From the NCBI RefSeq assembly GCF_002095575.1, contig NZ_MLJJ01000001.1, forward strand, positions 62,001 to 126,000: a DNA stretch of 64,000 nucleotides, read 5' to 3'. Position numbers and translations under genes: made by a program. Origin of the DNA: Pantoea septica. GTDB taxonomy: Bacteria; Pseudomonadota; Gammaproteobacteria; Enterobacterales; Enterobacteriaceae. Below, piece after piece: positions 5,779 to 13,564 of this stretch. Positions within the stretch are counted from its first letter, which is position 1. Every line of letters starts with the position of its first letter. The notes beneath the pieces were generated by a model. It was not told the origin of the DNA and made no database searches. It saw only the letters and a program-made list of their open reading frames with translations.

Positions 5779-6612
5779 ATGCGCACACCGCGTCGACGCT
5801 TGCGCCTCGCCCGCTATAAGAAGACCCGCCGCAAGGTGCACCAGCGTTTTCGCCAGCGTATTTTCGAGCGCGATCGCCAGGCGGAGCTGGCGTCCCATCC
5901 GCAGCCGTTCGTGGTGGTTTTGACCGGCGCGGGCATTTCGGCCGAGTCGGGCATCCAGACGTTTCGCGCCGCCGACGGCCTGTGGGAAGAGCATCGCGTA
6001 GAGGATGTGGCGACGCCGGAGGGCTATCGCCGCGATCCTGAGCTGGTGCAGCGTTTTTATAACGCGCGCCGTCGCGCGCTGCAGTCCAGCGAGATCCAGC
6101 CCAACGCCGCGCACAAGGCGCTGGCCGAGCTGGAGCAGGTGCTGGGCGATAACTTTTTGCTGGTCACGCAGAATATCGACAATCTGCACGAGCGCGCAGG
6201 CAACAGTCGCGTGCTGCATATGCACGGTGAGCTGCTGAAGGCGCGCTGCACCGGCAGCGGGCAGGTGATTGAGTGGAGCGGCGATCTCACCACCGACGAT
6301 CGCTGCACCTGCTGCCAGTTTCCTGCGGCGCTGCGCCCGCATGTGGTGTGGTTTGGGGAGATGCCCATCGGCATGGAGGAGATTTATCATGCGCTGGAGC
6401 AGGCGGATCTTTTTATCGCTATCGGCACCTCCGGGCATGTCTATCCGGCGGCGGGCTTCGTGCATGAAGCCAAATTGCAGGGCGCGCATACCGTGGAGCT
6501 GAACCTGGAGCCGAGCCTGGTGGGCAATGAGTTCGCCGAGCGTCACTATGGGCTGGCGAGCCAGGAAGTGCCGCAGTTTGTGGATGGTTTTTTGCGGAGT
6601 TTGTATAAGTAA
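5779..6612 (+). CDS. cobB: NAD-dependent protein deacylase CobB (sirtuin)
   Basis: Removes acetyl and succinyl groups from lysines using NAD+, for example reactivating acetyl-CoA synthetase. Sirtuin motifs are complete: the NAD-binding [26 protein letters not shown], the catalytic His in HMHGEL, a zinc motif with Cys in KARCTGSG and DRCTCCQF, then FGEMP and [12 protein letters not shown]. The basic N-terminal extension ([19 protein letters not shown]) matches the long CobB form of enterics. Length 277 aa is normal. A strong AGGAG lies 5 bases before the ATG. No nagK lies upstream, unlike in E. coli. Confidence 0.96.
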
Positions 6613-6649: not shown

Positions 6650-6832
6650 CGGGTGACTGGGCCCGATCGCAAAGACGCAAAAGCGGCATCCCTGCCGGCT
6701 CGGCCCGCGCGGTTACGCCCCTCATCCTTGAGGGGCGCCCGTAAACGGGCCAACGCGCTGCGTTGTTCAAAAACGCTCCCGGCGTTTTTGTCCTTGTCGC
6801 GGGACGCTTTGCTCTTCGGTCCCAGTCACCCG
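6650..6832. repeat. Dispersed intergenic repeat, copy 1 (~183 bp, structured)
   Basis: Palindromic element in the convergent cobB/potD gap. The outer arms CGGGTGACTGGG (6650-6661) and CCCAGTCACCCG (6821-6832) are exact complements, extended inward with interruptions by CCGA/TCGG and GCAAAG/CTTTGC. Inside are three hairpins: CGCCCCTCA-tcct-TGAGGGGCG (6716-6737), GCCCG-taaa-CGGGC (6737-6750) and AAAAACGC-tccc-gGCGTTTTT (about 6769-6788), the last resembling an intrinsic terminator. A second copy with the same layout lies at 12224-12410. Short open frames across it are side effects of the repeat. Confidence 0.88.
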
Positions 6833-6886: not shown

Positions 6887-7930
6887 TTATCGACCCGCCT
6901 TTAGCTTCTGGAACAGCGTCTCATACTGTACGCTGGCGTCGCCAACATCGTTCTGCCATTCGCCATTCTGGATCACCTCGGCGGAAGGGTAGAGCGACGG
7001 ATCGCCTGCCACCGCTTTCGGCAGCAGCGCCTTCGCAGCGAGGTTCGGCGTCGGGTAGCCGATGGTTTCCGCCACCTTCGCCGCCACGTCGGGACGCAGC
7101 AGGAAGTTAATCAGCTTCAGCGCGCCCGCCTTGTTTTTCGCGTTGGCCGGGATGGCCAGGTTATCCATCCAGAAAATCCCGCCCTCTTTCGGCCAGACCA
7201 CCTCCAGCGGCGTGCCCGCCTGACGCGCCACGTAAGCGGAACCGTTCCAGATCATGCCGAGATTCACTTCCCCTTCCATATAGGGGTTGCCGGGATTGTC
7301 GGAGTTAAAGGCGAGCACGTTCGGCATCAGCTTCTTCAGCTCTTCATAGGCGGCGTTGATCTCTTTTGGATCGCGCGTGTTGCCGGAGAGACCCAGCTTG
7401 CGCAGCGCCATCTGGAACACCTCGCGCGCGTCGTCGGTCAGCAGCAGGCTCTGCTTATACTCCGGCTTCCACAGGTCGGCCCAGCTCTGCACCGACTTCG
7501 CGTCGACCGCGTCGGTATTGACGCCGATCGCCGTTGCGCCCCAGATATAGGGGATCGAATAGTCGTTATTGGGATCGAACGGCTTGTTCAGCAGGTTTGG
7601 ATCGAGGTTTTTAAAGTTGCTGAGCTGCGCCTTGTCAATCTTCTGCAGCATGCCTTCATTGCGCATCTTCGCCACGAAGTAGGTCGAGGGCACCACCAGA
7701 TCGTAGGCGCCGTCTTTCCAGGTCTTCAGCTTGGCGTACATGCTCTCGTTGGACTCGTAGGTCGAGTAAATCACCTTGATGCCGGTCTCTTTGGTGAACT
7801 GCTCCAGCAGCCCCGGCGGCACATATTCAGTCCAGTTATAGAAGTAGAGCGTGTTGCCGTCGTCCGCCTGCGCGCCCTGCATGCCCAACGCCAGCGCCCC
7901 AGCCGCCAGCCAGTGAGACCATCTCTTCAT
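6887..7930 (-). CDS. potD: Spermidine/putrescine ABC transporter binding protein PotD
   Basis: Periplasmic polyamine-binding protein of PotABCD. The signal peptide MKRWSHWLAAGALALGMQGAQA precedes the mature start DDGNTLYFYNWTEYVP, a hallmark of the PotD family. Start 7930 is preferred over the adjacent ATG at 7933 because the GAGG ribosome site is better spaced; length 347 aa matches E. coli (348). It is last in the potA-potB-potC-potD operon, 10 bases after potC, and its 3' end faces the repeat at 6650-6832. Confidence 0.96.
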   Translation of the reverse strand: MKRWSHWLAAGALALGMQGAQADDGNTLYFYNWTEYVPPGLLEQFTKETGIKVIYSTYESNESMYAKLKTWKDGAYDLVVPSTYFVAKMRNEGMLQKIDKAQLSNFKNLDPNLLNKPFDPNNDYSIPYIWGATAIGVNTDAVDAKSVQSWADLWKPEYKQSLLLTDDAREVFQMALRKLGLSGNTRDPKEINAAYEELKKLMPNVLAFNSDNPGNPYMEGEVNLGMIWNGSAYVARQAGTPLEVVWPKEGGIFWMDNLAIPANAKNKAGALKLINFLLRPDVAAKVAETIGYPTPNLAAKALLPKAVAGDPSLYPSAEVIQNGEWQNDVGDASVQYETLFQKLKAGR

Positions 7931-7940
7931 CATCAATCCT

Positions 7941-8714
7941 CTATTTGGTTTTATCTCGGAGCAACAGCTGGCTGACGCCGACCAGCAGCAGCGACAGCAG
8001 CAGCAAAATCGTCGCCAGCGCATTCACCTCTGGCGAGACGCCGACTTTCACCATCGAATAGATCTTCAGCGGCAGGATCTCAAAGGTCGGCCCGGTGACG
8101 AACGAGGAGACCACCACGTCGTCCATCGACAGGGTAAAGCTCAGCAGCCAGCCCGCCGCCACCGCCGGCATCGCCAGCGGCAGAATAATTTTACGCAGAA
8201 TCGTGGTTTCGCTGGCACCCAGATCCTTCGCCGCTTCCAGCATGCGCACGTCAAAACCCTTCAGCCGCGAGTAGACGGTAATCACCACGAAAGGCAGACA
8301 GAAAGTAATGTGCGAAAAGAGCAGCGACCAGAAGCCGAGCGAAATGCCGAGCAGCATAAACAGCACCAGCAGGGAGATCGCCATCACGATATCCGGCGAC
8401 ATCATCACCACGAACAGCATGCCGCTGACAAAGGGCTTGCCGCGAAAGCGATAGCGGTAGAGCGCCACGGCGGTGAGCGAGCCGATCAGCGTCGCGCAGC
8501 TGGCAGAAAGCACCCCCATCATCAGCGAATGCTGCGCCGCCTGAATCAGGCTATCGTTATTCACCAGCAGGCTGTACCACTGAGTGCTGAAGCCCTGCCA
8601 GTTGATGCCGAAGCGCGAGGCGTTGAACGAGTTAACGATCAGAATAGCGATAGGGATATAAAACCAGGCGTAAATCGCGGCCATAAAGCCGCCGCGTAGC
8701 AGGCGTGCGATCAT
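7941..8714 (-). CDS. potC: Spermidine/putrescine ABC transporter permease PotC
   Basis: Inner-membrane permease of the polyamine importer. The 257-aa protein has about six hydrophobic helices, the first starting FMAAIYAWFYIPIAIL. The permease-ATPase coupling (EAA) loop is at LEAAKDLGASETTILRKI, in the binding-protein-dependent permease domain (about residues 60-250). It overlaps the end of potB by 4 bases, so expression is coupled. The C-terminal end lies 10 bases from potD. Confidence 0.96.
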   Translation of the reverse strand: MIARLLRGGFMAAIYAWFYIPIAILIVNSFNASRFGINWQGFSTQWYSLLVNNDSLIQAAQHSLMMGVLSASCATLIGSLTAVALYRYRFRGKPFVSGMLFVVMMSPDIVMAISLLVLFMLLGISLGFWSLLFSHITFCLPFVVITVYSRLKGFDVRMLEAAKDLGASETTILRKIILPLAMPAVAAGWLLSFTLSMDDVVVSSFVTGPTFEILPLKIYSMVKVGVSPEVNALATILLLLSLLLVGVSQLLLRDKTK

Positions 8715-10963: not shown

Positions 10964-12193
10964 ATGGATCAGTTACTTGAACGTTTTTTAAGTTACGTGG
11001 CGATAGAGACGCAGGCAAAACCGCAGGCGCGTCAGGTGCCCAGCAGCGAAGGGCAGTGGACGCTGGCGCGCAAGCTGCAGGAAGAGCTGATTGCGCTTGG
11101 TTTTATCGACGTCTCGCTCAGCGATCACTGCTGCGTGATGGGCACGCTGCCTGCCAACGTCGACTGGCCGACGCCGGTGATCGGGTTTATCTCGCATATG
11201 GATACGTCGCCCGATTTTACCGCGAAGAATGTGAACCCGCAGATTATTGAGAACTATCGCGGCGGCGATATCGCGCTCGGCACGGGCGAAGAGGTGCTGT
11301 CGCCGGTGATGTTCCCGATCCTGCATAAGCTGATCGGCCATACCCTGATCACCACCGACGGTAAGACGCTGCTTGGCGCCGACGATAAGGCGGGCATCGC
11401 CGAGATCATGACGGCGATGGCGCGCCTCGCTAAAAGCGATATTCCGCACGGCGCCATTCGCGTCGCCTTTACTCCGGATGAAGAGATTGGCCGCGGCACT
11501 TCGCACTTCGACGTCGAGGGTTTCGCCGCCGACTGGGCCTATACCATCGACGGCAGCGATCTCGGCGAGTTCGAATATGAGAACTTCAACGCGGCCTCAG
11601 CGGTGGTGAAGATCGTCGGCAATAACGTGCACCCCGGCTCGGCGAAAGGGGTGATGGTGAACGCGCTCGATGTGGCGACGGCGTTTCATGCCGAAGTGCC
11701 GGCGAAAGAGCGCCCGCAGTTTACCGACGGCTACGAGGGCTTTTACCATCTGCATCAGATCAAGGGCACGGTAGAGCACGCCGAGCTGCAGTACATTATC
11801 CGCGATTTCGACACCGACGCGTTTGAACAGCGCAAACAGGTGCTGACGGCGATTGCCGAGCGCATTAACGCCGGGCTGCATAAAGACTGCACCGTCACGG
11901 TGGAGATCACCAACAGCTACCGCAACATGCGCGAGAAGGTGGAGCCGCACCCGCATATTATCGAGCTGGCGCTGCAGGCGATGCGCGACTGCGGCATCGA
12001 GCCGAAGGTGAAGCCGATTCGCGGCGGCACCGACGGTTCCGCGCTGTCGTGGAAAGGACTGCCGTGCCCGAATATCTTTACCGGCGGCTATAACTACCAC
12101 GGCAAGCACGAGTTCGCCTCGCTCAATATTATGGCGCAGTCGGTGGATGTGATTGTACGGCTGGCGGAGCTGGCGGCGGAGAGAAAAGGGTAA
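10964..12193 (+). CDS. pepT: Peptidase T (tripeptide aminopeptidase)
   Basis: Cytoplasmic zinc aminopeptidase of family M20 that releases N-terminal residues from tripeptides. The sequence shows the metal-site motif [10 protein letters not shown] (about residues 75-84), LLGADDKAG (Asp ligand), the catalytic/ligand pair [15 protein letters not shown], and the C-terminal His in [11 protein letters not shown]. Length 409 aa is typical. AAGGATGG precedes ATG 10964. The upstream region contains TTGATAATGATGG, which half-resembles an FNR site; E. coli pepT is FNR-activated, but the match here is weak. Confidence 0.96.
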
Positions 12194-12223
12194 AAAACGT
12201 CTCCGTCAGTAGGCGCAGCGCTT

Positions 12224-12410
12224 ACGCGGGTGGCGTGGAGCGCTCGCAAAGTCGCTAAACGCATCCCTGCTCGCTCGGCCCGCGTAGCGACGCACCTCAT
12301 CCCTGAGGTGCGCCCGTTACCGGGCCAACGCGCTGCGTTGTTTAAAAACGCTCCCGGCGTTTTTATCCCTGGCGCGGGACGCTTTGCTCTTCGCTCCACG
12401 CCACCCGCGT
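12224..12410. repeat. Dispersed intergenic repeat, copy 2 (~187 bp, structured)
   Basis: Same element as at 6650-6832, same orientation, in the convergent pepT/roxA gap. The outer arms are a perfect 19-bp inverted pair (12224-12242 with 12392-12410). They differ from copy 1 at several positions, yet both strands change together (for example GGTGACTGGG versus GGTGGCGTGG, each with its exact complement). The inner hairpin is CGCACCTCA-tccc-TGAGGTGCG; its fourth pair is A-T where copy 1 has C-G. The hairpins GCCCG-ttac-CGGGC and AAAAACGC-tccc-gGCGTTTTT are conserved. Confidence 0.88.
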
Positions 12411-12436: not shown

Positions 12437-13564
12437 CTACTCAGCGTCGCCAAAGTACCAGTACCCGGCGTTAACCAGCGCGGCAAGCTGCGCCAGCAGC
12501 GACGGGTCATCCAGCGTCTCGCCGAAATCCTCCAGGCTCAGCGTCTGACGACGCGCCAGCGCCTTCAGCACTTCCGGCTGCGAACACTCGACGCGCTCGC
12601 CGTTGACAAATACCGCGTCGCCAATAGTCAGCACGCGCAGGCCGCCAAGACGCGACAGCGTATCGCCCTGCTGCAGCGCATCGTAAATCTCATCGGGCTG
12701 ATAGGGCGGCTCCGGCGGCGCGACGTCCAGCTCATGACGCGACTGGGAGATGAACTCCCCGAACCAGCTGGCGAAATGCTCCGGCTGGTCGATCACGTCG
12801 AGCATCACCTTGCGAATGCCTTCGATCTCCTGCGGCAGAATCTGCGACGGGCAGTCGCGCGCCGGCACGTCAGGATCGCTGTAGCGATAGCTGCCCAGCT
12901 CGCGCGCCAGCACGTAGTCGGCGAAGCCGCTGATCAGCTCGCGGCCGCTCGGTGCGCGGAAGCCGACAGAGTAGTTGATGGCGTTCTCCAGCGAATAGCC
13001 TTCATGCGGGAATCCCGGCGGAATATAGAGAATATCGCCAGGCTCCATCTCTTCATCGATAATGGCGTCGAACGGCTCCACCTGCAGCAAATCGGGATGC
13101 GGGCAGTGCTGCTTCATCGGCACTTTCTCGCCGACGCGCCAGCGCCGACGGCCGGTGCCCTGAATAATAAACACGTCGTACTGATCGAAGTGCGGGCCGA
13201 CGCCGCCGCCCGGCACGGCGAACGAAATCATCAGATCGTCGATGCGCCAGTCAGGCAAAAAGCGGAACGGGCGCATCAGCGCCGCAGAGGGCTCATGCCA
13301 GTGGTTCACCGCCTGCACCAGCAGCGACCAGTTGTTTTCGCCCAGGTGATCGTAGCTTTCGAAAGGACCGTGGCTCACCTGCCACTTGCCGTCGTTATGG
13401 CTGACCAGACGGCTGTCCACCTCATTTTCCATCGCCAGTCCGGCCAGCTCGTCAGGAGAGATGGGATCGACAAAGTTTTTAAAACCGCGCTTAAGCAGCA
13501 CCGGGCGTTTTTGCCAGTAGCGCTGAATAAAGTCGGGCCAGTTAAGATCGAGCTGATAGTCCAT
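12437..13564 (-). CDS. roxA: Ribosomal protein uL16 arginine hydroxylase RoxA (YcfD)
   Basis: Fe(II)/2-oxoglutarate oxygenase of the JmjC/cupin type that hydroxylates an arginine in ribosomal protein L16. The iron ligands are visible as GPHFDQYDVF (His and Asp, about residues 124-133) and the distal His in PPGFPHEGYS (about 187). A C-terminal winged-helix region (about 300-375) is present. Length 375 aa matches the E. coli protein. It lies beside phoQ, as in E. coli. Confidence 0.94.
   Translation of the reverse strand: MDYQLDLNWPDFIQRYWQKRPVLLKRGFKNFVDPISPDELAGLAMENEVDSRLVSHNDGKWQVSHGPFESYDHLGENNWSLLVQAVNHWHEPSAALMRPFRFLPDWRIDDLMISFAVPGGGVGPHFDQYDVFIIQGTGRRRWRVGEKVPMKQHCPHPDLLQVEPFDAIIDEEMEPGDILYIPPGFPHEGYSLENAINYSVGFRAPSGRELISGFADYVLARELGSYRYSDPDVPARDCPSQILPQEIEGIRKVMLDVIDQPEHFASWFGEFISQSRHELDVAPPEPPYQPDEIYDALQQGDTLSRLGGLRVLTIGDAVFVNGERVECSQPEVLKALARRQTLSLEDFGETLDDPSLLAQLAALVNAGYWYFGDAE

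Follow-up and report, generated by a model that had tools for sequence, protein, structure and literature searches.

What is a palindromic, multi-hairpin repeat doing between protein-coding genes of Pantoea septica, and is it kept as RNA or as DNA? The 64,000-nt stretch analyzed here (the window) carries two copies of such a repeat, which a sequence-only reading had described as sharing an inner core within different outer arms, with changes on one side of a helix matched on the other, and had tentatively ascribed to selection on a folded RNA or DNA form rather than to simple homology decay. The observation of two related, compensated copies is confirmed. Their parts are listed below; for copies, hairpins, and cores, the strand given is that of the inferred functional RNA.

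6650-6832, minus strand: copy 1, long form, a frame with one core (BLAST, fold, and exact letters)
6650-6666, no strand: copy 1 frame, left outer arm, pairing with 6816-6832 (exact letters and fold)
6816-6832, no strand: copy 1 frame, right outer arm (exact letters)
6669-6674, no strand: copy 1 second frame stem GCAAAG, pairing with 6807-6812 (pairing analysis and letters)
6685-6696, minus strand: copy 1 frame hairpin, minus-strand loop CAGGGATG, of the form CANGGANG (loop pattern and letters)
6714-6790, minus strand: copy 1 core unit, four hairpins, homologous to tRNA-linked repeats (covariance model match)
6717-6736, minus strand: copy 1 core hairpin E, minus-strand loop CAAGGATG (core alignment and letters)
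6737-6750, minus strand: copy 1 core hairpin F (core alignment and letters)
6752-6764, minus strand: copy 1 core hairpin G (core alignment and letters)
6769-6789, minus strand: copy 1 core hairpin H, minus-strand loop CGGGA (core alignment and letters)
6790-6796, minus strand: copy 1 split frame loop (CAAGGAC), in which the minus strand retains ANGGA (loop pattern and letters)
12224-12410, minus strand: copy 2, long form (BLAST, fold, and exact letters)
12225-12242, no strand: copy 2 frame, left outer arm, pairing with 12392-12409 (fold and letters)
12392-12409, no strand: copy 2 frame, right outer arm (fold and letters)
12261-12270, minus strand: copy 2 frame hairpin, minus-strand loop CAGGGATG (loop pattern and letters)
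12289-12365, minus strand: copy 2 core unit (covariance model match)
12292-12311, minus strand: copy 2 core hairpin E, minus-strand loop CAGGGATG (core alignment and letters)
12312-12325, minus strand: copy 2 core hairpin F (core alignment and letters)
12327-12339, minus strand: copy 2 core hairpin G (core alignment and letters)
12344-12364, minus strand: copy 2 core hairpin H, minus-strand loop CGGGA (core alignment and letters)

The arms of copy 1 read CGGGTGACTGGG / CCCAGTCACCCG at 6650-6661 and 6821-6832, and those of copy 2 CGGGTGGCGTGG / CCACGCCACCCG at 12227-12238 and 12396-12407. All three arm differences are compensated (A-T to G-C, T-A to G-C, and G-C to T-A, the opposite arm matching each), and the reported exchange of a C-G for an A-T pair in an inner hairpin is present between 6717-6736 and 12292-12311. 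The shared core and the different outer arms are likewise both seen, but there are no two arm types: arms differ copy by copy, and across the family each copy's own two arms remain complementary despite this variation. The two copies folded far more stably than dinucleotide shuffles, with z scores of -6.3 and -7.7 for the plus strand (some flank included) and -8.0 and -8.3 for the minus strand, and 0 of 200 shuffles reached the real fold energy in each of the four copy and strand tests. A covariance model of the core, of which both copies are themselves rows, matched copy 1 at 92.8 bits (G000:C1:68710-68792, window 6710-6792) and copy 2 at 86.8 bits (G000:C1:74285-74367, window 12285-12367).

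The copies are not a chance resemblance, because copy 2 used as a BLAST query gave 51 matches in the host genome. These comprise about 25 near full-length copies, about ten short forms, which appear as paired matches to query positions 1-61 and 142-187, and fragments; the further copies that the sequence-only reading had proposed to look for thus exist in number. Among 60 relatives searched, the host's own genome included, the element was found in 24 of 36 genomes of the same genus and in 0 of 24 of other genera. Matches in 34 plasmid records were all from Pantoea, with no annotated feature beneath the match, while phage records gave no match to the element, viral contigs none to a 23-base piece of the core, and 5,426 E. 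coli genomes no blastn match to the element.

Anchor patterns delimited 251 distinct elements in 439 loci, of which 166 have a single core, 55 are short forms, and 30 are longer, the last being either tandem cores or anchors spanning two neighbouring elements. The element is composite: a palindromic frame, also found alone, holds 0 to 6 copies of a core of about 78 nt with four hairpins. In the frame, an outer stem and a GCAAAG/CTTTGC stem are accompanied by a hairpin whose loop reads CATCCNTG and, at the apex, by the hairpin CCCGCGN-ATCCNTG-NCGCGGG; in long forms the core is placed within the loop of that apical hairpin. Five tandem cores occupy one frame at L152 640-1240 and six occupy another at G015:C1:2808970-2809570; here the core, and not the frame, has been amplified locally.

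At the copy 1 site, 24 of 30 loci were readable by eye; long forms were present in G000 and G028, short forms in G008, G013, and G007, and the element was absent from 19, two near relatives (G071 and G064) among them. All 30 loci were readable by eye at the copy 2 site, where G000 and G026 carried long forms, G064 a short form, and G071 an arms-only remnant, with no element in 26, G008 and G028 among them. The core is gained or lost at fixed sites. Since occupied and empty sites differ beyond the insert itself, no target-site duplication is readable. About 2 kb of other DNA lies between the two copy 1 site flanks in G026 (G026:C2:2415821-2417799), so this 3'-3' junction takes larger inserts too. 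A frame with a core also lies behind three tRNA-Lys genes in a record labelled Enterobacter ludwigii (L090 1057-1243); its flanks resemble a Pantoea locus (L046), and the label may be wrong.

Pairing was analyzed in 93 long copies, one per locus cluster, drawn from 196 elements in 112 clusters, with clusters lacking a one-core copy left out. RNAalifold recovered only part of the expected helices on this set, so helices were set by hand from single-copy folds. The outer arms paired at 82.7% of cells, versus 55.9% when right arms were dealt to other copies (58.4% in the highest of 50 deals), and the outer stem held 368 double-change cells. Because the copies are related, the test was redone within sites, using 52 same-site pairs (the 47 sites they come from each have more than one element and gave no more than two pairs; three of the 52 are tandem copies in one locus and not orthologues). 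In these pairs, double Watson-Crick changes number 18, where independent change of the two sides would give about 2, and there are also 5 double non-pairing changes and 95 single changes (A-C 30, G-T 20, other 45). Stem changes are therefore correlated, in the family as in the original pair, and the excess of paired arms and of same-site double changes argues for selection on a folded form over homology decay.

Paired changes might instead come from mutation, if template switching between the palindrome arms rewrote one from the other, leaving double changes without any function. Such a process would yield within-site double changes like those seen, and the outer arms, which form the longest palindrome, do change most; however, the short core hairpins E and G covary across genera too, loops remain constant, and the strand asymmetry described below is not expected from it, and we hold this account to be very unlikely.

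Mismatch types bear on which strand is folded. Among the 93 copies, A-C exceeded G-T in the outer stem (91 versus 41; 197 and 150 in the dealt control) and in hairpin H (13 versus 1), and another sampling gave 85 versus 58, with a bootstrap share of A-C of 0.55-0.70. Frame hairpin C is reversed (A-C 4, G-T 16), which counts against a minus-strand RNA, and most remaining inner helices are near even. An A-C mismatch read on the plus strand corresponds to a G-U pair in a minus-strand RNA, so the overall pattern modestly favours such an RNA.

The core reaches well beyond Pantoea. At least 113 GTDB genome stretches contain an exact 23-base piece of it, where by our own reckoning far fewer than one would be expected by chance; among the matches listed, most are from Pantoea, and others are from Pectobacterium, Dickeya, Klebsiella, Franconibacter, Methylophaga, Rheinheimera, Sedimenticola, and Natronospirillum. 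A 31-row alignment of the core shows the four hairpins with 95.6% of cells paired (86.3% shuffled) and 68 double-change cells (15.8 shuffled), hairpin H being near-invariant there because the rows were selected by the 23-base piece. Searching with the covariance model (E up to 1e-4) gave matches in 111 of 274 gammaproteobacterial genomes and 95 of 222 genera. In an alignment of 40 matches from 29 class-search loci, fitted to the model itself, 95.9% of cells were paired versus 76.1% shuffled, and 159 double-change cells stood against 40.7. Wobble across the class again leaned to A-C (48 versus 27 G-T; 175 and 177 in the dealt control); the lean comes from helix F (27 to 4), and helix G runs the other way (9 to 16). 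Taken across the class, the core is a structured RNA. An Rfam scan of 20 class-search loci matched tRNA and tmRNA only and no core, so the class-wide family is missing there.

A known relative is found in E. coli K-12, where the repeat RrB was matched at 69.3 bits by a core model without E. coli rows; the tyrT repeats scored 25.9 bits or less, rttR only weakly. RrB belongs to the tRNA-linked repeats (TLRs). As set out in the sections of PMC8144298 devoted to them, E. coli has, in ten loci, 22 TLRs whose last 18-19 bp come from the upstream tRNA or rRNA, and their conservation is given for 31 species in 12 genera of Enterobacteriales; the same sections report no known function for TLRs and hold that only the rRNA-linked ones look CsrA-binding. 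Copies of a tRNA or tmRNA 3' end accompany the cores found here too, with at least 18 of 20 positions identical in 18 of 35 core-RNA pairs and at least 15 of 20 in 21 of 35, whereas shuffled RNA ends never exceeded 15 of 20. Given the RrB homology and these copied ends, the cores found across the class look like the TLR family as a whole. Homology of the core to TLRs is well supported, and the Pantoea element looks like a TLR-derived variant without two TLR hallmarks, operon position and the copied RNA end.

The position of cores beside stable RNA genes indicates their strand. In 88 loci (69 from the class search and 19 chosen non-Pantoea loci with the 23-base piece), we found 123 matches, 114 of them distinct cores. 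A tRNA or tmRNA gene lay within 200 nt of 43 distinct cores, and 37 of these 43 are on the opposite strand, which would make the transcribed strand the minus strand of the repeat as first read; the remaining 71 of 114 have no tRNA or tmRNA within that distance, which counts against the CsrA reading set out below. By position, 28 are downstream opposite, 9 upstream opposite, 4 downstream same, and 2 upstream same. Three of the four downstream same cores belong to tRNA-Phe arrays (L079, L096, and L137), the wrong strand for GGA loops, and the fourth (L463) also lies behind an opposite-strand tRNA-Glu whose end it copies. In Methylophaga, three cores that follow 5S genes at a distance of 95-99 nt lie opposite them as well.

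Some of these loci show particular arrangements. Tandem cores follow tRNA-Phe on the tRNA strand in L079, L096, L102, and L137 (Enterobacter pulveris, Franconibacter, and Enterobacterales records). Methylophaga cores sit in rRNA operon trailers (L104, L110, and L124), several in a row at L104 and L110.

Of the two forms that the sequence-only reading had left side by side, RNA is thus favoured, by the wobble asymmetry of the outer arms and by the fixed strand behind tRNA, tmRNA, and 5S genes in other genera. A structure acting at the DNA level, such as a cruciform or DNA hairpins bound by a protein, would fit the folding of both strands; the strand preference and the asymmetric wobble point instead to RNA, and make a DNA structure highly improbable.

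What the minus strand displays is a recurrent loop. Loop E reads CA(N)GGANG in 101 of 123 matches (92 of 114 distinct cores), on 43 different stem sequences, and loop H holds GGA in 112 of 123; the loop E motif is absent from 22 of 123 matches, which counts against CsrA binding. In 8-letter loops, C, A, GG, A, and G are near constant, and positions 3 and 7 vary. Loops were cut by the model alignment, which is cleaner; earlier counts with fuzzy patterns lean towards the motif. The element thus carries several GGA motifs in hairpin loops, as a sponge RNA should. CAGGANG is the repeat of CsrB. CANGGANG is a documented Rsm motif, in the part of PMC6849547 that deals with it. For TLRs, the relevant sections of PMC8144298 report that RrB binds CsrA in vitro and that changing three GGA motifs weakens binding; they also predict 19 tRNA-linked E. 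coli repeats to be without CsrA affinity, which counts against a class-wide CsrA reading, and describe only modest phenotypes for RrA/B/F.

A CsrA match was present in 235 of 274 gammaproteobacterial genomes. Comparison of the listings gave no association between CsrA and the core: a CsrA match is lacking from 12 of the 111 genomes with the element and from 27 of the 163 without it, and CsrA gene presence neither supports nor refutes the CsrA reading. In three loci, a core follows a csrA-like gene, at distances of 115 nt (L446 1501-1582), 314 nt (L448 1501-1580), and 531 nt (L476 1501-1577), with its GGA strand in sense, and coordinates suggest the same arrangement in G209, G216, G309, G323, and G329. 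The 3' region of csrA itself may carry CsrA-binding hairpins.

In the window, both copies lie between convergent genes.

5779-6612, plus strand: left neighbour of copy 1, a sirtuin-like ORF that we take to be cobB
6887-8023, minus strand: right neighbour of copy 1, convergent, an ORF that is presumably potD-like
10964-12193, plus strand: left neighbour of copy 2, an ORF that we assume to be pepT-like
12437-13564, minus strand: right neighbour of copy 2, convergent, an ORF that we take to be roxA-like
12198-12215, no strand: decayed remnant of a terminator hairpin whose intact form adjoins the element in G064 (L325) (by eye)

With genes called by a hexamer score trained on the window, 89 of 106 Pantoea loci were convergent, 11 had both neighbours leftward, 5 both rightward, and 1 was divergent. 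These loci, out of 127 locus clusters, are those in which each neighbour lies no more than 500 nt away and no gene was called across the element; a smaller set under other clustering gave 78 convergent, 14, 5, and 1. Element-free gaps of the same loci, which are not a random genome sample, were convergent in 18 of 223 cases. The excess of leftward over rightward tandem contexts (11 versus 5) is not significant and counts against reading the element as a minus-strand 3' UTR.

Convergent placement is also what would be expected if the element were a bidirectional transcription end that replaces native terminators. By eye, at the two window sites, the terminator hairpin of related genomes is missing or decayed beside the element. 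Yet under a simple rule the element itself scores as an intrinsic terminator in only 3 of 88 (plus) and 1 of 88 (minus) convergent loci, and 55 of 88 retain a terminator-like hairpin in a flank, so that a take-over of termination is only a suggestion. Scanning for intrinsic terminators gave only weak candidates at copy 1 and nothing at copy 2; the element is thus unsupported as a stand-alone intrinsic terminator, and the bidirectional end is in our view quite unlikely. No promoter-like site was found at copy 1 or copy 2.

We favour, at about an even probability, a reading in which the TLR core has left the stable-RNA operons and now supplies CsrA-binding hairpins in 3' UTRs, as decoy or control element. 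The palindromic frame, which also exists alone, would hold the TLR-homologous four-hairpin core in its apical loop, and the minus strand would be transcribed as the 3' UTR of the right-hand gene, potD-like or roxA-like in the window. The resulting RNA would display several GGA loops to which dimeric CsrA/RsmA could bind, and the scattered copies may then serve as CsrA decoys, as 3'-UTR control elements, or as both; in stable-RNA operons, the same core would couple CsrA titration to growth rate. For the Pantoea copies, we infer function from the motif by way of the homologue RrB. A broader version is possible, and we advance it tentatively: TLR cores would be CsrA/RsmA-binding hairpins throughout the class, and in Pantoea one lineage of them would have escaped into a mobile palindromic frame to become a genome-wide network of dozens of 3'-UTR decoys, their strength tuned by tandem gain and loss of cores.

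The element could also be an ordinary non-autonomous dispersed palindrome of the REP, ERIC, or MITE sort, spread by some enzyme and tolerated mainly at 3' ends, where it would at most stabilize mRNA ends, its GGA loops being a functionless TLR relic. Copy number and presence do vary between species and sites, and 3'-end placement is known for REPs, as the pertinent part of PMC3733652 describes. This account leaves unexplained the retention of the loop motif over many genera while both N positions vary, as well as the compensatory changes after insertion, and it lacks a RAYT-type transposase in the host genome; we judge it somewhat unlikely. E. coli genomes carry REP and ERIC. The earlier statement that the repeat is not ERIC, BOX, or REP stands, as far as tested, for REP and ERIC: E. 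coli gave no match, neither GTAG nor CGTC recurs as a fixed tag at the ends (of 127, 10 left and 4 right flanks contain GTAG, and 16 and 20 contain CGTC), and Y1_Tnp (Y1/RAYT transposase), the only transposase family searched, had no match in the host genome. Lacking the tag and a RAYT partner there, a REP identity is rejected.

The reading as a TLR-derived source of CsrA-binding hairpins gives the element its wider interest. The sequence-only reading had seen neither the build from frame and core nor the TLR homology, the placement between convergent genes, or the CsrA-type loops. A general function of TLRs becomes directly testable, given that the core is found across the class and that its CANGGANG loops are conserved and mostly read on the strand of the stable RNA. 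The Pantoea element shows how an operon module can leave, be boxed in a palindrome, and settle between convergent genes, possibly a new way in which binding sites for a post-transcriptional regulator come to be dispersed. In the open-licence PubMed Central literature, we found no description of the Pantoea element or of the class-wide TLR family, and the window had no Rfam match at gathering score; an ATPC match at copy 2 under a lax threshold was below gathering score and is taken as chance.

Compared with known systems, the window copies come closest to the TLRs RrA/RrB/RrF. They have a homologous four-hairpin core, the RrB loop CAGGACG is of the same type as theirs, and RrB has the same strand sense as the cores in other genera. 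In contrast to TLRs, which sit in stable-RNA operons and end in a copy of the upstream RNA 3' end, the window copies have no such copy, lie in a window without a tRNA or an Rfam rRNA/tRNA match, and are instead placed inside a palindromic frame between convergent protein genes. Matches to the Rfam family RtT (RF00391; E. coli rttR, tyrT operon) lie over the core, on its other strand, in a Sedimenticola locus (L063) and at L512 and L515; the window copies differ in that RtT has no match at gathering score in the window and none up to E 5 at copy 2, and rttR reaches only 25.9 bits with the core model. RtT-type repeats lie opposite cores at L512 558-691 and L515 908-1035 (host genome), one of them behind two tRNA-Tyr genes. 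With REP/BIME, ERIC, and MITEs, the element shares its nature as a dispersed intergenic palindrome near 3' ends, but it differs from them in having no E. coli match, no tag, no RAYT, and a multi-hairpin core with an RNA homologue. Finally, CsrB/CsrC and RsmX/Y/Z have no counterpart in the dispersed, multi-copy distribution of the window copies, which are without an Rfam match or a promoter-like site, yet like these RNAs the element carries several GGA loops of the CANGGANG or CAGGANG type.
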